64,000 bases of DNA from contig NZ_AP025285.1 of assembly GCF_023168405.1 (NCBI RefSeq), forward strand, positions 558,001 to 622,000. The letters are read 5' to 3'. The translations under genes and the position numbers were made by a program. This DNA is from Leptogranulimonas caecicola (GTDB lineage Bacteria > Actinomycetota > Coriobacteriia > Coriobacteriales > Atopobiaceae). Shown piece by piece: positions 40,105 through 47,734 of the stretch. Position 1 is the stretch's first letter, and the number at the start of each line of letters is the position of its first letter. The notes beneath the pieces are model-generated. The model had not been told where the DNA came from and did no database searches. It was given only the letters and a program-made list of their open reading frames with translations.

Positions 40105-40896
40105 TTAAAGCAGGGACAACCCTATCACGTATATAAGACCATAGATGCATAATACCGCGTCCACCTGCCCCAGATGCGGTTTCTTCCAAATAGTGCGCGG
40201 GCGGTTGGGATCGTAATGGCGAGCCTCGAGGGCCAGTGACAGCCCTTGGGCATGACGCAGCGCGCCGGCGAACGTGGGCACCAAAATGCTCAAAAGGGCC
40301 TGCAGGCGCCTCACTGGGCCTCCGGAGTCAAAGGCGGCCCCGCGAGCGCGCTGGGCATCCATGACGCTTTGGATCTCTAAGGTGAGGGTGGGCACAAATC
40401 GCAGCGCCAGTGCCAGCACAAAGGCCAGTTGCTCCACCGGCACGCCCAGGCGACCCAGAGGAGAGAGCAGCGACGAAAGGGCACGGGTGAGCTGCAGCGG
40501 CTCGGTCACGGCCAAAAGCAGAGCTCCGTTCACCACCAAAAGCCCCAGCCTGGTGGCGGTGAGGGCTGCCGAGAAGAGCCCGCCCTCATGAATGGCGAGC
40601 GCCCCCCAGCTCCAAAGCAGCGGGCCTTCTGGATTCACGAACAGGTTGAGCAGCGAGAAGACTGCCAGCAACACCAGAAGTGGTGCCGAGGAAGCCAAAA
40701 GCGACATCGGCGAGATGCGCCCCAGCGCACAGAGTCCCAAAAAGCCTGCCAGCGCCCAGAGAGCCTGCATCGGTGAGACGATCAAGAAGATGGTGGTCAT
40801 AAAGGCCACGGTTACCAGGATCTTGGCGCGGGCGTCGGCTCTGTGGAGAGGCGAGGAGCCCTTCTGGTAGCGGCCGAACTCCCCTAGCGCGCTCAT
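40105..40896 (-). CDS. ecfT: ECF transporter transmembrane protein EcfT (riboflavin operon)
   Basis: The 263-residue membrane protein has the EcfT opening GEFGRYQKGSSPLHRADARAK and coupling motif DAQRARGAAFDSGGP. It overlaps the ATPase gene upstream by four bases. It is the last gene of the riboflavin uptake operon and would be the coupling scaffold between RibU and the ATPases. This is a second, distinct EcfT from the one at 5448. Confidence 0.92.
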   Translation of the reverse strand: MSALGEFGRYQKGSSPLHRADARAKILVTVAFMTTIFLIVSPMQALWALAGFLGLCALGRISPMSLLASSAPLLVLLAVFSLLNLFVNPEGPLLWSWGALAIHEGGLFSAALTATRLGLLVVNGALLLAVTEPLQLTRALSSLLSPLGRLGVPVEQLAFVLALALRFVPTLTLEIQSVMDAQRARGAAFDSGGPVRRLQALLSILVPTFAGALRHAQGLSLALEARHYDPNRPRTIWKKPHLGQVDAVLCIYGLIYVIGLSLL

Positions 40897-41846
40897 GAGG
40901 CGCCTCCCAAAGACGGGCCGCCAAAAGTGTTGCCGCTCGAGGGCGCGTTCTCAGGGGAGTCCGCAGAGCCGGGGGTCTCCAAGGCGGCGCGACGGGCGCC
41001 GGGTATCAAATCCCGCTGTGCGAGGATGGCTTTTACCAGGGCATCCTCTGTGAGAGGGGCGCCTAGGGAGGCTCCGGTGCGCGCTTCCAGCTGATGGGCG
41101 AAGGCCAGGGGAGCAGGGAGGCCCAGCCCCAGGCGACGGAGTTTCTCGGCATGGGAAAAGACCTGGGCACAGGGGCCTTCTAGGGCGACGGCACCCTGGT
41201 CGAGCACCACCATCCGGGAGGCGATGCGTCCGGCAGCATCCATGTCGTGGCATACCATGAGCAGGGCGCCGGTGGGGGTGACCAGCTGGGACAAGGCACG
41301 CTCTACCAGGGACCGGCCCTCAGGGTCGAGCGCAGAGAGGGGTTCGTCGAGCACCAGGTTGCGCGGCTTCATGGCCAGCACGCCTGCGATGGCCACCAGG
41401 CGCTGCTGGCCTCCGGATAGCTCGAAGGGCGAGCGGCGGGCGAGATGCAAGACCTCCAAAAGATCCAGGGCCTCGGTGGCGGCGCAGGCGGCCTCCTGGG
41501 CAGAGAGACCGGCGTTTTTGGGGCCAAAGGCCACGTCGTCGAGCACGCTGGCGGCGAAGAGCTGGCGCTCCGGGCGCTGCATCACATAGCCCAGGCGCCA
41601 GGGAAGCTCAGGGTCGCGCCTGGGGCGGCCCAAAAAACCCGAGCGCCAAATTGGGGCTCCGTCGACCTCGATAGTGCCGCTCTTGGGACGCAACAGACCG
41701 GCAGCAAGTTTGAGTACCGTGGATTTGCCCGAGCCAGTTGCTCCGGCCAGCACGGTGAGAGCGCCGTCGGGCACAGCAAGGCTCAGATTGGAGATTACCG
41801 GCTGGGCCTCATAGCCAAAGGTCACCTGGGAAAAGTCGAGGCTCAT
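40893..41846 (-). CDS. ECF transporter ATPase (second of two)
   Basis: A 317-residue ABC ATPase with Walker A ATGSGKST, signature LSGGQQRLVAIAG and Walker B NLVLDEPLSALDPEG. About 70 extra C-terminal residues past the ABC domain are typical of EcfA proteins. It overlaps both neighbours by four bases (ATGA). Confidence 0.92.
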   Translation of the reverse strand: MSLDFSQVTFGYEAQPVISNLSLAVPDGALTVLAGATGSGKSTVLKLAAGLLRPKSGTIEVDGAPIWRSGFLGRPRRDPELPWRLGYVMQRPERQLFAASVLDDVAFGPKNAGLSAQEAACAATEALDLLEVLHLARRSPFELSGGQQRLVAIAGVLAMKPRNLVLDEPLSALDPEGRSLVERALSQLVTPTGALLMVCHDMDAAGRIASRMVVLDQGAVALEGPCAQVFSHAEKLRRLGLGLPAPLAFAHQLEARTGASLGAPLTEDALVKAILAQRDLIPGARRAALETPGSADSPENAPSSGNTFGGPSLGGAS

Positions 41847-42697
41847 GAGGCGCCACCTGCCAGCTGGTCCAAAAGGGTCGCAGGAGAGACGGTGGGGCTC
41901 ACGGGCATGCCAGAGCGAGCCAGAGCCAATGCCAGCGAGGTGGCGAAGGGGGGCTCCAGCGAAAACGAGGCGAGGCGGCTCGCCTGAGTGAGCACCTGCT
42001 CAGGGGCGCCCTGCAGTGCGATCTTTCCTCTGGACAGCACAATGATGCGGTCTGCGGCGGCCGCTTCGTCCATGGAGTGGGTCACCAGCACGCAGGCATG
42101 CGGAGCGCCCAGCGAGGCCAGTGTGGCAGCCACTTGACGGCGGCCCTCCACATCGAGCCTGGCGCCAGGCTCGTCCAGCACCAAGAGCGCCGGGTCGCAC
42201 GCCAGCGCCCCTGCAATGGCCACCCGCTGTTGCTGGCCGCCAGAAAGCCGAGTGGGATCTTGGCTTGCCAGTGTTTCCAGGTGCGTGGCCTCAAGGGCGT
42301 CGTCGACCGCCTGATCGATGGCGGCGGGGTCCCAACCCAGATTCTCGGGGCCAAAGGCCACGTCTTGGTCCACCTGAGTGGTCAAAATGGCGTCCTCGGG
42401 GGTTTGAAAGACCATGGCGCTTCTGTCCCGCGCCTGCTGATAGGCCTCGCCGTCAGGGACGCCGTCCACAAAGCAGGTGCGGCCCATGAGCTCCACGGCG
42501 CCCTCATCGGGCGCCAGGATGCCTGCCAAAAGGCGTGCCAGCGTGGATTTTCCCGAGCCGTTGGCCCCCAAGAGGCAAAGGCGCTCTCCGGCCTCTACCG
42601 ATAAGGACACATCGTCTAGCGCCCAGGTGGCCCCGCCGTCGTAGGAAAAGCGCACGTGCTCTAGCTTGGCTACCTGCAAGTCTTCCCTAGGGCTCAT
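41843..42697 (-). CDS. ECF transporter ATPase (first of two)
   Basis: A 284-residue ABC ATPase with Walker A GANGSGKST, signature LSGGQQQRVAIAG, Walker B LLVLDEPGARLD (Gly-Ala replaces the common Thr-Ser), and H-loop VTHSMDEA. It overlaps the S-component gene upstream and the other ATPase downstream by four bases each. Confidence 0.92.
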   Translation of the reverse strand: MSPREDLQVAKLEHVRFSYDGGATWALDDVSLSVEAGERLCLLGANGSGKSTLARLLAGILAPDEGAVELMGRTCFVDGVPDGEAYQQARDRSAMVFQTPEDAILTTQVDQDVAFGPENLGWDPAAIDQAVDDALEATHLETLASQDPTRLSGGQQQRVAIAGALACDPALLVLDEPGARLDVEGRRQVAATLASLGAPHACVLVTHSMDEAAAADRIIVLSRGKIALQGAPEQVLTQASRLASFSLEPPFATSLALALARSGMPVSPTVSPATLLDQLAGGAS

Positions 42698-43305
42698 TGG
42701 CCTACCATGGTGGAGACGGGTTTGTAGACCGCCAGCGTAAGGGCGGTGTTAATGGCGATCTTCAGCAGGTTGAAGGGTAAAAGCACCGGCACGATGAGGG
42801 TGGCCACGGTCTCCAGCGGCATGCCCGAGTAAAGGGGCGTGATCACCAGGTTTCCCAAGAGGGCCACTGCAAGGGTGACGACTGCAGCGATGAGCAGCCC
42901 TGCTACAGCTCCCTTGAAACTGTGATGGCGCCTGTAGATAAAGGCCGCGGGCAGGGTGGCTGCCAGAGAGCAGGCCATGGCCATGATGGCGCCAAAGGGG
43001 TCTGTGAACAGGCGGATCACCCAGGGAAGCACTGCGGTGCAAGCGCCGATGGCCGGCCCAAACAAAAGGCCTGCCACCAGGCATACCACGCCGGAGGGGT
43101 CGTACTTGAGGTACGGGGCCAAAGGAAAGATGGGGATCTCGATGAAGCTGGCCACCAGGGCAGCGGCGCAAAAGAGCGCCGAGATCGCCACGCGCCTGGA
43201 GTTCCAGGAACTCGCATCCTTCGAAGTGGCGTGGGCCGAGGGCCTCTGCCCGTTGGCGGGCTGGGTAGATGATTTGGTTTTAGATGAGGAAGTTTGCCAC
43301 GTCAT
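42694..43305 (-). CDS. ribU: ECF riboflavin-binding S component (RibU-like)
   Basis: The 203-residue protein has a polar head of about 35 residues and then six hydrophobic segments in the pattern of ECF S proteins: ISALFCAAALVASFIEIPIFPLAPYLKYDPSG, GLLFGPAIGACTAVLPWVI and so on. The segment PLAPYLKYDPSGV is typical of RibU. The FMN riboswitch just upstream strongly supports riboflavin as the substrate. It is first in a four-gene operon in which every junction overlaps by four bases. Confidence 0.9.
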   Translation of the reverse strand: MTWQTSSSKTKSSTQPANGQRPSAHATSKDASSWNSRRVAISALFCAAALVASFIEIPIFPLAPYLKYDPSGVVCLVAGLLFGPAIGACTAVLPWVIRLFTDPFGAIMAMACSLAATLPAAFIYRRHHSFKGAVAGLLIAAVVTLAVALLGNLVITPLYSGMPLETVATLIVPVLLPFNLLKIAINTALTLAVYKPVSTMVGQ

Positions 43306-43526: not shown

Positions 43527-45869
43527 CTAAGAGGCTGAATCCTGCCTGCGAGGAGCACGCGAGCGCACGAATCCCGCGACGGTGCCCATGGCCCTGGCTC
43601 CCCAGAGGAGGCCGGCCACCATAGGGGAGAGCTCGGTGGACGTCTCGTTTTCTTGAGGCACGCGAGGGAACGCCGTGGCGGGGAACGGATGGATGGTTTC
43701 CGCGGCCGCGGCCGCGTTCTTTTGCGCTGCGGCCGAGATGCCGTCTTGGGCCGCCGAATCCAGCCCAGGCAGGGGATCCTCTTCCAAAGGCTGCTGGGTG
43801 GCAGGCTCGTCGTAGAGGGCTACCAGCTGCAAATCCGTCTCCACCGGAGTGTCAAAGTCAAAGGACTCGCCGTCTTTGGCGTTGGCCCAGCCGCTGAAGA
43901 CCGCCAAAGGTTGGCCCGAGGGCACGCCGGGCTCGCCAGGCTTCTCGATCAGAGAGCCAGGGGCCACCAGATGGGTGTCGATAAGCGCGCCGTCAGAGGT
44001 ATAGAAGCACACTTCGCATACGGGACGTGCCGATAAGAGCCGCTCCTCGTGGTCGTCTACAAACTGGTCGGAAGAATCGGGATCGCCGGTGGTGGCCGCT
44101 CCCTCCTCAAGCCAGCCAAAACCCTGGTAGGCAGGGTCATTCTCGGGAAGGGTCAAGGTGAAGGTGCCCCGGGCCCCGTCGTCGCGGTAGTTGTAGAAGT
44201 CTCGGGCGCGGCCGGCGCGGTTGCGGCCCAGCAGGGTGCCTTGGACTTGGGCGTTGCCGGCGTTCAAGATGCCGCCGCCTCGACGGGCGGTGTTATGGGC
44301 CACGGTGCCTCTGGCCATGGTGAGCGAGCCGGTGTTCACAATACCGCCGCCCATATCCTCCACCATGTTGTAGACAAGCACTGCGCCCTCGGTGGCCAGA
44401 TGCCCGCGGTTGAAGACGCCGCCTCCGTTTTGGGCGGCGTTGTGCGACAGGCCCGAGGAGCCCAAAAGCACCGTGCCGGTGTTGTAGATGCCGCCGCCCA
44501 TGCCCTGGGAGGCGTTGTGCACGATGGTGGCGCTCACGCATTCCAGTTTGCCGGTGTTATAGATGCCGCCTCCGCCATATTGGGTGGAGTTGGCCTGGTT
44601 GTCCACAATGTCGCCCTGGGTGATGTGCACGCGGCCGGAGGCGTTGTAGATGCCGCCTCCGTAGAGGGCGCGGTTGCGGGAAAGCCCCGCGCCTGCGATC
44701 TCGATGGAGCCGGTGCGAGTGTTGAAGACGCCGCCGCCGGTATAGAGGGCGCAGTTGCCGGCAATGGTGCCGTCGGCCAGCGACAGGCGTCCGGTGTTGA
44801 AGACGCCGCCGCCCGAGCCCTGCGTGCCTTCGGCCGCGTTTTTCACGATGGAACCGCCTTCCATGGCCAGGCTGCCCCGGTTATAGATGCCCGCGCCGGA
44901 GTCGGCCTCGTTGGCGACGATCACCGCGCCTGCCTCCTGGAGGCGGCCAGAATTAAAGACGCCGCCGCCCATGGCAGCAGAGTTATGGGAGACGTCTCCT
45001 CCCGCGAGCATCACTTCGCCGGTGGAATAGATGCCGCCACCTCGATGGTCTGCCTCATTGGCGGTGATGCGGCCGCCAGAGACATCCACCGAGCCCTTGC
45101 CCACGCAGTAGACGCCGCCGCCGTGGGTGGCCGCATTGCCCTCGATGGTGCCCCCGGTCATCTTGAAGGCAGCGTGGTCGCAGTAGACGCCGCCGCCAAA
45201 GGGGCGTGCCTCCGAGCCCTCGCGGTTGTTGTTGGCGATGGTTCCCCCAGACATGGTGAAGCAGGCTCCCTCAAGAATCTGCACCGCCGCTCCGGGCACC
45301 GCCGAGCTGGCTTGGGCCGTAGAGCAGTTGGTGATACGGCCGCCACCCATAAAAAACTTGGCGTTCTCCCCGCTGACCCTCACCGCGCACCCTGAAGCTT
45401 TGTCATCTTGGGGCTTTACCTGCCAGCCCTCGATGGCGGCGCAGTGCCCCATGACCAGCGTGCCTTCACACTCCACCACCGAGCCTTGGGGAAGCTCCTC
45501 TTTTGCCTTGGGCGCCTTGGCCAACAAGGCCACGTCGAGCTCGAGCAACCCCTCTGGGGCCACCGAGAAGAGCGATTCTCCCGCCGGGAAGGGAGGCTCC
45601 AAGATGATGGACCCCGCCACATGGAGGGTGGCGCTGGCAGGGACGCTAAAGAGCGTCTTTACGCCAGGGGCCACGCGCAGCCGTGTGGCACAGCAGAGCA
45701 GGTCGATGCGAGCGCCCTCGGGGATGGTCACGGGCGTGTCGGCATAGACCACGGCAGGCAGCGCCATGGTGCCTGAGACCTCGGGGCTTCCAAGCAGCTC
45801 TGCCAAGTCGCTCCAGGAAGCGGGGCAGTGAAGTTGTGGGGTATCTGGCATGGGGTTTCCACTTGTCAT
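43527..45869 (-). CDS. Parallel beta-helix repeat protein with Listeria-Bacteroides-type domain
   Basis: The 780-residue protein is dominated by about 15 repeats of 22-26 residues built around GGGIYN/GGGVFN and 'N.A..GG' (about residues 165-560), the pattern of a right-handed pectin-lyase-like beta helix. After this comes an InlB-B-type domain (about 600-675, with CFYTSDGALIDTHLVAPGS and FSGWANAKDGE). The tail has a hydrophobic segment (VAGLLWGARAMGTVAGFV) followed by Arg-rich residues, resembling a sorting tail, but no LPxTG box. No N-terminal signal peptide is seen. The start ATG overlaps the MurB-fusion stop by four bases. Function unknown; adhesion is the usual role of such helices. Confidence 0.75.
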   Translation of the reverse strand: MTSGNPMPDTPQLHCPASWSDLAELLGSPEVSGTMALPAVVYADTPVTIPEGARIDLLCCATRLRVAPGVKTLFSVPASATLHVAGSIILEPPFPAGESLFSVAPEGLLELDVALLAKAPKAKEELPQGSVVECEGTLVMGHCAAIEGWQVKPQDDKASGCAVRVSGENAKFFMGGGRITNCSTAQASSAVPGAAVQILEGACFTMSGGTIANNNREGSEARPFGGGVYCDHAAFKMTGGTIEGNAATHGGGVYCVGKGSVDVSGGRITANEADHRGGGIYSTGEVMLAGGDVSHNSAAMGGGVFNSGRLQEAGAVIVANEADSGAGIYNRGSLAMEGGSIVKNAAEGTQGSGGGVFNTGRLSLADGTIAGNCALYTGGGVFNTRTGSIEIAGAGLSRNRALYGGGIYNASGRVHITQGDIVDNQANSTQYGGGGIYNTGKLECVSATIVHNASQGMGGGIYNTGTVLLGSSGLSHNAAQNGGGVFNRGHLATEGAVLVYNMVEDMGGGIVNTGSLTMARGTVAHNTARRGGGILNAGNAQVQGTLLGRNRAGRARDFYNYRDDGARGTFTLTLPENDPAYQGFGWLEEGAATTGDPDSSDQFVDDHEERLLSARPVCEVCFYTSDGALIDTHLVAPGSLIEKPGEPGVPSGQPLAVFSGWANAKDGESFDFDTPVETDLQLVALYDEPATQQPLEEDPLPGLDSAAQDGISAAAQKNAAAAAETIHPFPATAFPRVPQENETSTELSPMVAGLLWGARAMGTVAGFVRSRAPRRQDSAS

Positions 45870-47734
45870 GATGTATATGGCCCTACAAATCTCACTTCGG
45901 GCTCAAGCGTCACGCCGGAGTGCTCGAGCACCTGTTGTTGGACATGTTCGATCAACGCCTTTACGTCGCGAGCGGTGGCATTGTGGGCGTTTACCACAAA
46001 GCCTGCGTGCTTAGGAGAGACCTCGGCGCCGCCTATGCGAGCCCCCTGGCAGCCTGCCTCGGTGATGAGCTTGCCGGCGAAGTGGCCCTCGGGGCGCTTG
46101 AAGGTCGAACCTGCACTGGGCATCTCAAGAGGTTGCTTTTCTTCTCGGCGGCAAGTGAGGTCGTCCATCTTGGAGCGAATGTCGCCGCTGTCGGCGGGCG
46201 CGAGGCGGAAGGTAGCAGAGATGACCACCAAATGGTCTGTCTTCACGCGGCTGGTGCGATAGCCCAAGTCCAGGTCCTTGGCTACCAAGGTTTCTGTGTG
46301 ACCGTCGCTGAAGAGCACCTCTGCGCTCTCCAGCACGTCGGCTATGCAGCCGTCGTAGGCTCCGGCATTCATAAAGACGGCGCCGCCTACGGTGCCGGGG
46401 ATGCCGCAGGAAAACTCCAGGCCGCTCAGAGAGAGGGCCGCCGCCATCTCTGCGGCATCTGCGAGCGCCACGCCAGCTTGGCAGGTGAGGCGGGTGCCGT
46501 CATGGGCTACATCTAAAAGCCCGCTGGACACATCCACCATGACGCCGCGGTATCCGGCATCAGAGACCAAAAGGTCGCTGCCTTTGCCCAAGACGAAGAA
46601 GGGGACCCCCTTGTCGCGCAGAAGGCGCACGGAGTCTATGAGCTGGCCGCGGCTCTTAGGGGTGATGTAGACGTCTGCCGGCCCGCCGATCTTGAACGTG
46701 GTGTGATCTTTCATGGGTTCGCCCAAGACGACGCCGTCCTTGCCCAAGATATCGCCCAGTTCTTGGGCGATGGCATAGCGATCGAAGCCGCTGACAAGGG
46801 CGTCTAAGATGCGGGCTTCGCGCAAGGAGTCGTCCAAGCCCATAAGCGGGCTTTCCTTGGCGCCCGACAAGAAGCAGGAGCAGAAGTGCTGGATCTGCGC
46901 GCTAAAGTCGTCGCCAGGCAGCGGGGCTTTTAGAAGCTCGTCCTCGCCGCCTTGGCGATGGAGCACCGCGCGCACCGGACGGGTTATATCGGAGATCTCA
47001 ATGGAACCCTCATTGCCAAAGATGGTGGCAGCGCAGCCTAAGTCCTGGGTGGCATCGCAGGTGAGAGTGCACCCATAGGTGCCAATGCCCATGGTGGCGC
47101 TGTCTTGCCAGTCCACCTCGTCGCGATAAAGATGGCTGGCTTTGTGTACCTTGATATCGCCCGAGCAATACTCTGCGAGGTAAGTGGCGCCATAGATGCC
47201 CATATCGAGCGCCTGGCCGCCTCCTATAGGCTCTGTAAACCAGGGGCGTGCCTGCGAAGGGTCCACCTTGCGGATAAGGGATGCCTCGACACCCGAAACC
47301 TCGCCTATGGCCCCTTGGCTCACCCGCTGGCGCACCAGCTGGTAGAGCGGGGTGAAGCGAGGCTTCATAGCTTCCATGTAAAAGCGATCGTGCTCCAGGG
47401 CGGCTTTGGCCACCTGGCTAAACTCTGCGGCGGTAAGGGCGCAAGGCTTCTCGCATAGGACGGCTTTGCCGGCTTCGATAGCCTCCAACGAATAGGGTGC
47501 GTGCGATGCCGGAGGCAGGGCGATATAGATAGCATCGATATCCTGGCGCGCCAAAAGCTCTTGGGCAGAGCTTTGAGCTTCCATGCCATACTCAGCGGCG
47601 AATTTCTCGCAATGGTCTTGGGTGGGACTCCATAGGGCAACCAGTTCACAATTGGGTTCCTGCGCGCAGGATGCGGCAAAGCGGCGTGCGATGCCGCCTG
47701 AGCCCAAAATGCCCCATTTCACCATCTCGCTCAT
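45866..47734 (-). CDS. murB: Fusion of Gfo/Idh/MocA oxidoreductase and UDP-N-acetylenolpyruvoylglucosamine reductase (MurB)
   Basis: The 622-residue protein is one continuous frame. Residues 1-316 are a Gfo/Idh/MocA dehydrogenase: Rossmann motif WGILGSGGIARRFA, catalytic-lysine motif CEKP (94-97), and GGGQALDMGIYGATYLAEY. Residues 322-622 are a full type II MurB: FKIGGPADV, the FAD loop GKGSDLLVSDAGYRG (383-397), SCGIPGTVGGAVFMNAGAY, catalytic Ser543 in AGSTFKRPEG and the Glu in EPEVRFVG near the end. MurB reduces UDP-GlcNAc-enolpyruvate to UDP-MurNAc with NADPH. The joined dehydrogenase is not part of known MurB enzymes. Ribosome site GGGAGG before ATG 47734. Confidence 0.9.
   Translation of the reverse strand: MSEMVKWGILGSGGIARRFAASCAQEPNCELVALWSPTQDHCEKFAAEYGMEAQSSAQELLARQDIDAIYIALPPASHAPYSLEAIEAGKAVLCEKPCALTAAEFSQVAKAALEHDRFYMEAMKPRFTPLYQLVRQRVSQGAIGEVSGVEASLIRKVDPSQARPWFTEPIGGGQALDMGIYGATYLAEYCSGDIKVHKASHLYRDEVDWQDSATMGIGTYGCTLTCDATQDLGCAATIFGNEGSIEISDITRPVRAVLHRQGGEDELLKAPLPGDDFSAQIQHFCSCFLSGAKESPLMGLDDSLREARILDALVSGFDRYAIAQELGDILGKDGVVLGEPMKDHTTFKIGGPADVYITPKSRGQLIDSVRLLRDKGVPFFVLGKGSDLLVSDAGYRGVMVDVSSGLLDVAHDGTRLTCQAGVALADAAEMAAALSLSGLEFSCGIPGTVGGAVFMNAGAYDGCIADVLESAEVLFSDGHTETLVAKDLDLGYRTSRVKTDHLVVISATFRLAPADSGDIRSKMDDLTCRREEKQPLEMPSAGSTFKRPEGHFAGKLITEAGCQGARIGGAEVSPKHAGFVVNAHNATARDVKALIEHVQQQVLEHSGVTLEPEVRFVGPYTS

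Follow-up and report, generated by a model that had tools for sequence, protein, structure and literature searches.

MurB (UDP-N-acetylenolpyruvoylglucosamine reductase) is a FAD-dependent, NADPH-using enzyme that converts UDP-GlcNAc-enolpyruvate to UDP-MurNAc, and it is an essential antibacterial target. One bifunctional protein that includes MurB was found described: the MurC-MurB fusion of Verrucomicrobium spinosum complements temperature-sensitive E. coli murB and murC mutants (PMC4803751). Here, in a limited set of gut bacteria, MurB is found joined to a different partner, an oxidoreductase of the Gfo/Idh/MocA family. No paper pairing these two domains was found in the open-access literature searched. 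This agrees with the original prediction, in which no described enzyme of this architecture was known. The protein is a new domain architecture built of known parts.

A dehydrogenase and MurB in one reading frame

The window, a stretch of 64,000 nucleotides from Leptogranulimonas caecicola, carries the fused gene on its reverse strand (45866..47734) as one ATG-started frame of 622 amino acids. A good Shine-Dalgarno motif, GGGAGG, lies ahead of the ATG; on the strand of the gene, the sequence just beyond 47734 reads ..GGGAGGTTTTTAAGC-ATG. The dehydrogenase domain (46787..47734, reverse strand; residues 1-316) comprises a Rossmann domain (GFO_IDH_MocA, PF01408, residues 6-120, 90.6 bits) and a C-terminal domain from residue 131 (GFO_IDH_MocA_C3, PF22725, residues 131-246, 40.6 bits). 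It is followed by the MurB domain (45869..46780, reverse strand; residues 319-622), with FAD_binding_4 at residues 354-482 (84.9 bits) and MurB_C at residues 518-617 (128.2 bits). All of these Pfam matches lie above the curated cut-offs, and the NCBIfam MurB model PRK13905 scores 355 bits on the fused protein against a cut-off of 259. The Pfam and PRK13905 scores bear out the two-domain, single-frame architecture that had been proposed from the letters alone. The domain limits proposed with it (1-316 and 322-622) are correct to within a few residues, MurB starting at about 319 here, and both sets of catalytic residues are indeed present: K96, D177 and Y181 in the dehydrogenase, and R493, S543 and E613 in MurB.

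The two domains meet at a joint spanning residues 300-330 (46745..46837, reverse strand). In a predicted two-domain structure (pLDDT 96.4, pTM 0.92), the final dehydrogenase helix (300-315) leads straight on to MurB's first helix (319-330) without a linker, and the position of the joint is identical in all fusions aligned. Compared with solved structures, the MurB half of the model matches Staphylococcus aureus MurB (1HSK; Z 40.0, 44% identity), while the dehydrogenase half matches mammalian dimeric dihydrodiol dehydrogenase (2O48; Z 39.5, 26% identity). Other structural neighbours of the dehydrogenase fold are the UDP-sugar enzymes WlbA and GnnA and the TDP-sugar ketoreductase KijD10. Production of a separate MurB from an internal start at the joint was also considered and rejected, as no convincing ribosome site was seen by eye over residues 300-350.

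Distribution and origin of the fusion

Searches covered 140 family, 398 class and 396 phylum genomes. Within the family, the full-length fusion was found in G000 and G001 (both of genus g1), G022, G003, G020, G063 and G065. The fusion of G067 (L052, 1280-3433, forward strand) has an insertion of about 95 residues in the dehydrogenase C-terminal domain, and that of a ninth genome, G066, spans the joint but is incomplete, running into a contig end. The insertion in G067 is of low complexity and rich in Ala, Ser and Asp. The eight open fusions represent four genera of Atopobiaceae, come from isolates as well as metagenome bins, and diverge down to 46% identity. The remaining family members that gave a match carry only the orthologous MurB, without the dehydrogenase. 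No further fusion was found among the class and phylum genomes, the latter checked down to MurB-only scores. Among the best 80 loci listed in a scan of named genomes, L135 and L136 are the two that carry the fusion.

The original prediction would have fallen had relatives shown a frameshift or a stop codon from residue 316 to 322, making two genes of the one; none was found, and eight genomes are open across the joint. That a sequencing or assembly error merged two genes can be given virtually no credence: the same frame and joint recur in eight separate genomes from four genera, isolates and metagenome bins alike, and no point in favour of an error was found. The fusion is thus no assembly error.

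In a tree of the dehydrogenase domains, the fused sequences form one clade (support 98/82) beside stand-alone Atopobiaceae homologues, which makes a single fusion event likely. In the MurB tree, the fused MurBs fall into two adjoining groups, one of which has G064's lone MurB at its base. G033, a reduced genome, has a lone MurB that sits beside the fused MurBs on a long, weakly placed branch. The shared joint and both trees are best read as one fusion event, after which the dehydrogenase was lost in G064, and perhaps also in G033 if it falls inside the fused group. Two fusion events, or transfer, may instead have produced this pattern. Before the fusion, the dehydrogenase was likely a free-standing enzyme of the sugar type in the ancestor of these Atopobiaceae. 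In neither G064 nor G033 was a dehydrogenase remnant found ahead of the solitary murB. An ancestral state in which a stand-alone dehydrogenase adjoined murB was considered and set aside, since a comparison of coordinates in family genomes put the two genes on separate contigs in each genome compared.

The MurB half and the second MurB

Every MurB2 checked, whether fused or stand-alone, retains the catalytic Arg, Ser and Glu. The serine is equivalent to S229 of E. coli MurB, of which an S229A mutant is held in the PDB. G000 has a second MurB between murC and ftsQ, in the dcw cluster (murG-murC-murB-ftsQ), at C1:1258065-1258919 (L059:6054-6971), outside the window. In most genera, this dcw MurB keeps all three residues. 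However, both the catalytic Ser and Glu are lost from it in the fusion-bearing g1, g3 and g22, where the motifs read GGIF/RPQVK (g1), CEVF/PQIK (g3) and GEVF/PQVK (g22) against the usual GSVF/PEVK. In g20, no dcw MurB was found in four fused genomes (88-98% complete) or in G066 (69% complete).

In every fusion-bearing genome checked, the fused MurB is the only one with the full catalytic set. With the dcw MurB degenerate or absent, no other competent MurB very probably exists in the cell. Judged from its residues and the lack of an alternative, the C-terminal half is close to certain to have MurB activity. The second MurB, its degeneracy and the clade-wide spread of the fusion lay beyond what the original prediction could see. 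A degraded or absent dcw MurB is not unique to fusion genomes: degraded copies are also found in the non-fused G013, G028 and G073, and no dcw MurB was found in some non-fused genera, such as g11, g19 and g33.

The degenerate dcw MurB of g1 is under purifying selection (dN/dS 0.055), suggesting that it may have a non-catalytic role; from its sequence, it is a probable MurB pseudoenzyme. Genomes in which the dcw MurB is degenerate but conserved thus offer a test case for a non-catalytic, MurB-like role in division.

The dehydrogenase half

The N-terminal half has the Rossmann and C-terminal domains of Gfo/Idh/MocA oxidoreductases, by Pfam matches above cut-off and by fold, as well as the EKP lysine and the downstream D-x-x-x-H/Y motif of that family. 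The putative catalytic residues K96 (of EKP), D177 and Y181 are invariant in six aligned fusions. Between two g1 species, dN/dS is 0.029 for the dehydrogenase and 0.111 for MurB, indicating purifying selection on both halves, with the dehydrogenase the more constrained. Its intact residues and low dN/dS suggest that the dehydrogenase half is probably active.

The original prediction placed this domain near the dihydrodiol-dehydrogenase branch, and the fold match (Z 39.5) and about 25% identity support that placement. By sequence, it belongs to an orphan Gfo/Idh/MocA subfamily that has dihydrodiol dehydrogenase and aldose oxidoreductase as neighbours; the closest solved sequences are aldose or dihydrodiol enzymes or a sugar ketoreductase, at low identity (about 25%). 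Models of known specificity score far lower than their cut-offs: 60.8 bits against 450 for UDP-GlcNAc 3-dehydrogenase (NF040723) and 104.2 against 355 for inositol 2-dehydrogenase (IolG, TIGR04380). Stand-alone homologues have varied carbohydrate genes as neighbours (PTS, ribose-isomerase-like and glycoside-hydrolase-like, with functions assigned by eye) and no cell-wall genes. Deducing the substrate from these neighbours was tried and abandoned because they vary.

Dihydrodiol dehydrogenase, which oxidises trans-dihydrodiols or D-xylose with NADP+, has an Arg closing strand 2 that presumably marks a preference for NADP. The aligned g3, g20 and g22 fusions have Arg at this position, residue 37, in a GRT motif. 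Residue 37 is Pro in the two g1 species, including that of the window, so that NADP preference is less sure there.

The same dehydrogenase subfamily is also found with a C-terminal HbpS-like domain (PF03928) in Coriobacteriia and Erysipelotrichaceae (L138, L141, L143, L147-L150, L152-L157 and L161; L151 is unfused). In the tree, these HbpS-like fusions apparently lie on more than one branch, separate from the MurB fusions.

Genomic neighbourhood and riboflavin uptake

Downstream of the fusion, a 780-residue repeat protein is encoded on the same strand (43527..45869, reverse strand), its start overlapping the fusion stop by 4 bp (ATGA). This protein is rich in GGGxxN-type repeats and has no Pfam match; conservation of its gene next to the fusion is limited to g1 and g22. 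Further on lies an FMN riboswitch (RF00050, 43312..43443, reverse strand, 101.9 bits), ahead of genes for a riboflavin-type ECF transporter (40105..43305, reverse strand) consisting of a RibU-like S component (42694-43305), two ATPases and a T component. The match of the S component to the riboflavin family is weak but above cut-off. DMRL synthase was not found in four fusion genomes, which, together with the riboswitch and S component, makes riboflavin import probable.

In much of the family, the neighbours of murB2 include DUF711, beta-lactamase-like and NlpC/CHAP-type genes and the ECF transporter. The position of riboflavin-uptake genes beside MurB, a FAD enzyme, accounts for the location of murB2, but not for the fusion.

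Possible roles of the fusion

The original prediction had offered three possible roles for the dehydrogenase: NADPH supply, action on a UDP-sugar and sensing of precursor levels. The preferred reading, a tentative one, is that the protein is bifunctional, with a working MurB and a dehydrogenase coupled through NADPH. The dehydrogenase half would use NADP+ to oxidise a small sugar or hydroxy substrate, the resulting NADPH would feed the adjoining MurB half, and MurB would use it to reduce UDP-GlcNAc-enolpyruvate to UDP-MurNAc. The fusion, its conservation within one clade, the retained residues and the degenerate or absent dcw MurB are observed; the activity of both halves, the NADP preference, the direction of the dehydrogenase reaction and the cofactor coupling are inferred. 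NADPH supply is preferred because MurB consumes NADPH and several enzymes that produce it were not found. Glucose-6-phosphate dehydrogenase (G6PD) was found in none of 18 family genomes, and 6-phosphogluconate dehydrogenase (6PGD) in none of the 18 except for a partial match in the non-fused G007, while membrane transhydrogenase was not found in the 8 family genomes tested. NADPH sources therefore look few, and the oxidative pentose-phosphate pathway appears absent across the family. This absence also counts against NADPH supply, as the enzymes are missing family-wide and not peculiarly from fusion genomes. In addition, G064, next to a fused g20 species, carries MurB with no dehydrogenase part, so MurB does not need it; the same is true of G033, a possible further relative. 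The NADPH demand of MurB is also small compared with other biosynthesis, leaving no obvious need for a private supply. A stronger version, in which the dehydrogenase regenerates NADPH from a specific sugar and powers in cis the MurB reduction, the final one ahead of the muramic-acid branch, such that one carbohydrate drives or gates the supply of wall precursors, is unlikely.

Almost as likely as NADPH supply is a plain tether without any catalytic link, a chance fusion kept because it makes a housekeeping dehydrogenase share the dosage or stability of MurB, which is essential and always expressed. The loss of the dehydrogenase with retention of MurB in G064, and possibly G033, fits a tether, as do the varied carbohydrate surroundings of the stand-alone homologues and the joining of the same subfamily to an unrelated HbpS-like domain, which marks it as prone to fusion. 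However, at least four genera, with identities as low as 46%, have retained both the joint and the catalytic residues, and it is the dehydrogenase half that is the more constrained between the two g1 species. These same invariant residues, Lys, Asp and Tyr, also weigh on the idea that the dehydrogenase half is a sensor that alters MurB activity when it binds NADP(H) or a sugar, since a mere sensor need not keep them. The linker-free joint of the high-confidence model would let signals pass between the domains, yet a sensor is the least probable of these roles. The dehydrogenase might instead act on a peptidoglycan-pool sugar (UDP-GlcNAc, UDP-MurNAc, free MurNAc or anhydro-MurNAc) that the fusion would channel or recycle; this is improbable too, though somewhat less so. 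MurB handles UDP-amino sugars, and WlbA, GnnA and KijD10 are among the structural neighbours of the dehydrogenase. Against this stand the UDP-GlcNAc 3-dehydrogenase score far under its cut-off, the aldose, dihydrodiol and sugar ketoreductase enzymes that are closest in sequence at low identity, and the PTS, ribose-isomerase-like and glycoside-hydrolase-like genes, assigned by eye, near stand-alone homologues.

Comparison with known systems

The only MurB fusion found described joins MurB to a pathway neighbour, while the partner here is a sugar oxidoreductase. This natural pairing suggests a possible tie between carbohydrate redox state and wall synthesis.

Compared with known MurB enzymes such as that of S. 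aureus (1HSK), the C-terminal half has the full domain set, the catalytic Arg, Ser and Glu, and 44% identity. Unlike the usual MurB, it is fused to an N-terminal dehydrogenase, and its gene lies away from the dcw cluster, next to genes for riboflavin uptake. The N-terminal half shares its fold, EKP lysine and D-x-G-x-Y motif with dihydrodiol dehydrogenase, aldose-aldose oxidoreductase and KijD10, but is only about 25% identical to them and is followed by MurB. The Gfo/Idh/MocA-HbpS-like fusions have the same dehydrogenase subfamily with a C-terminal partner, which is PF03928 rather than MurB. As in the V. spinosum MurC-MurB protein, MurB forms the C-terminal half of a bifunctional protein; there, however, MurC catalyses the following step of the pathway and about 100 residues lie between the domains (PMC4803751), whereas the dehydrogenase partner here belongs to another metabolism and is joined without a linker.
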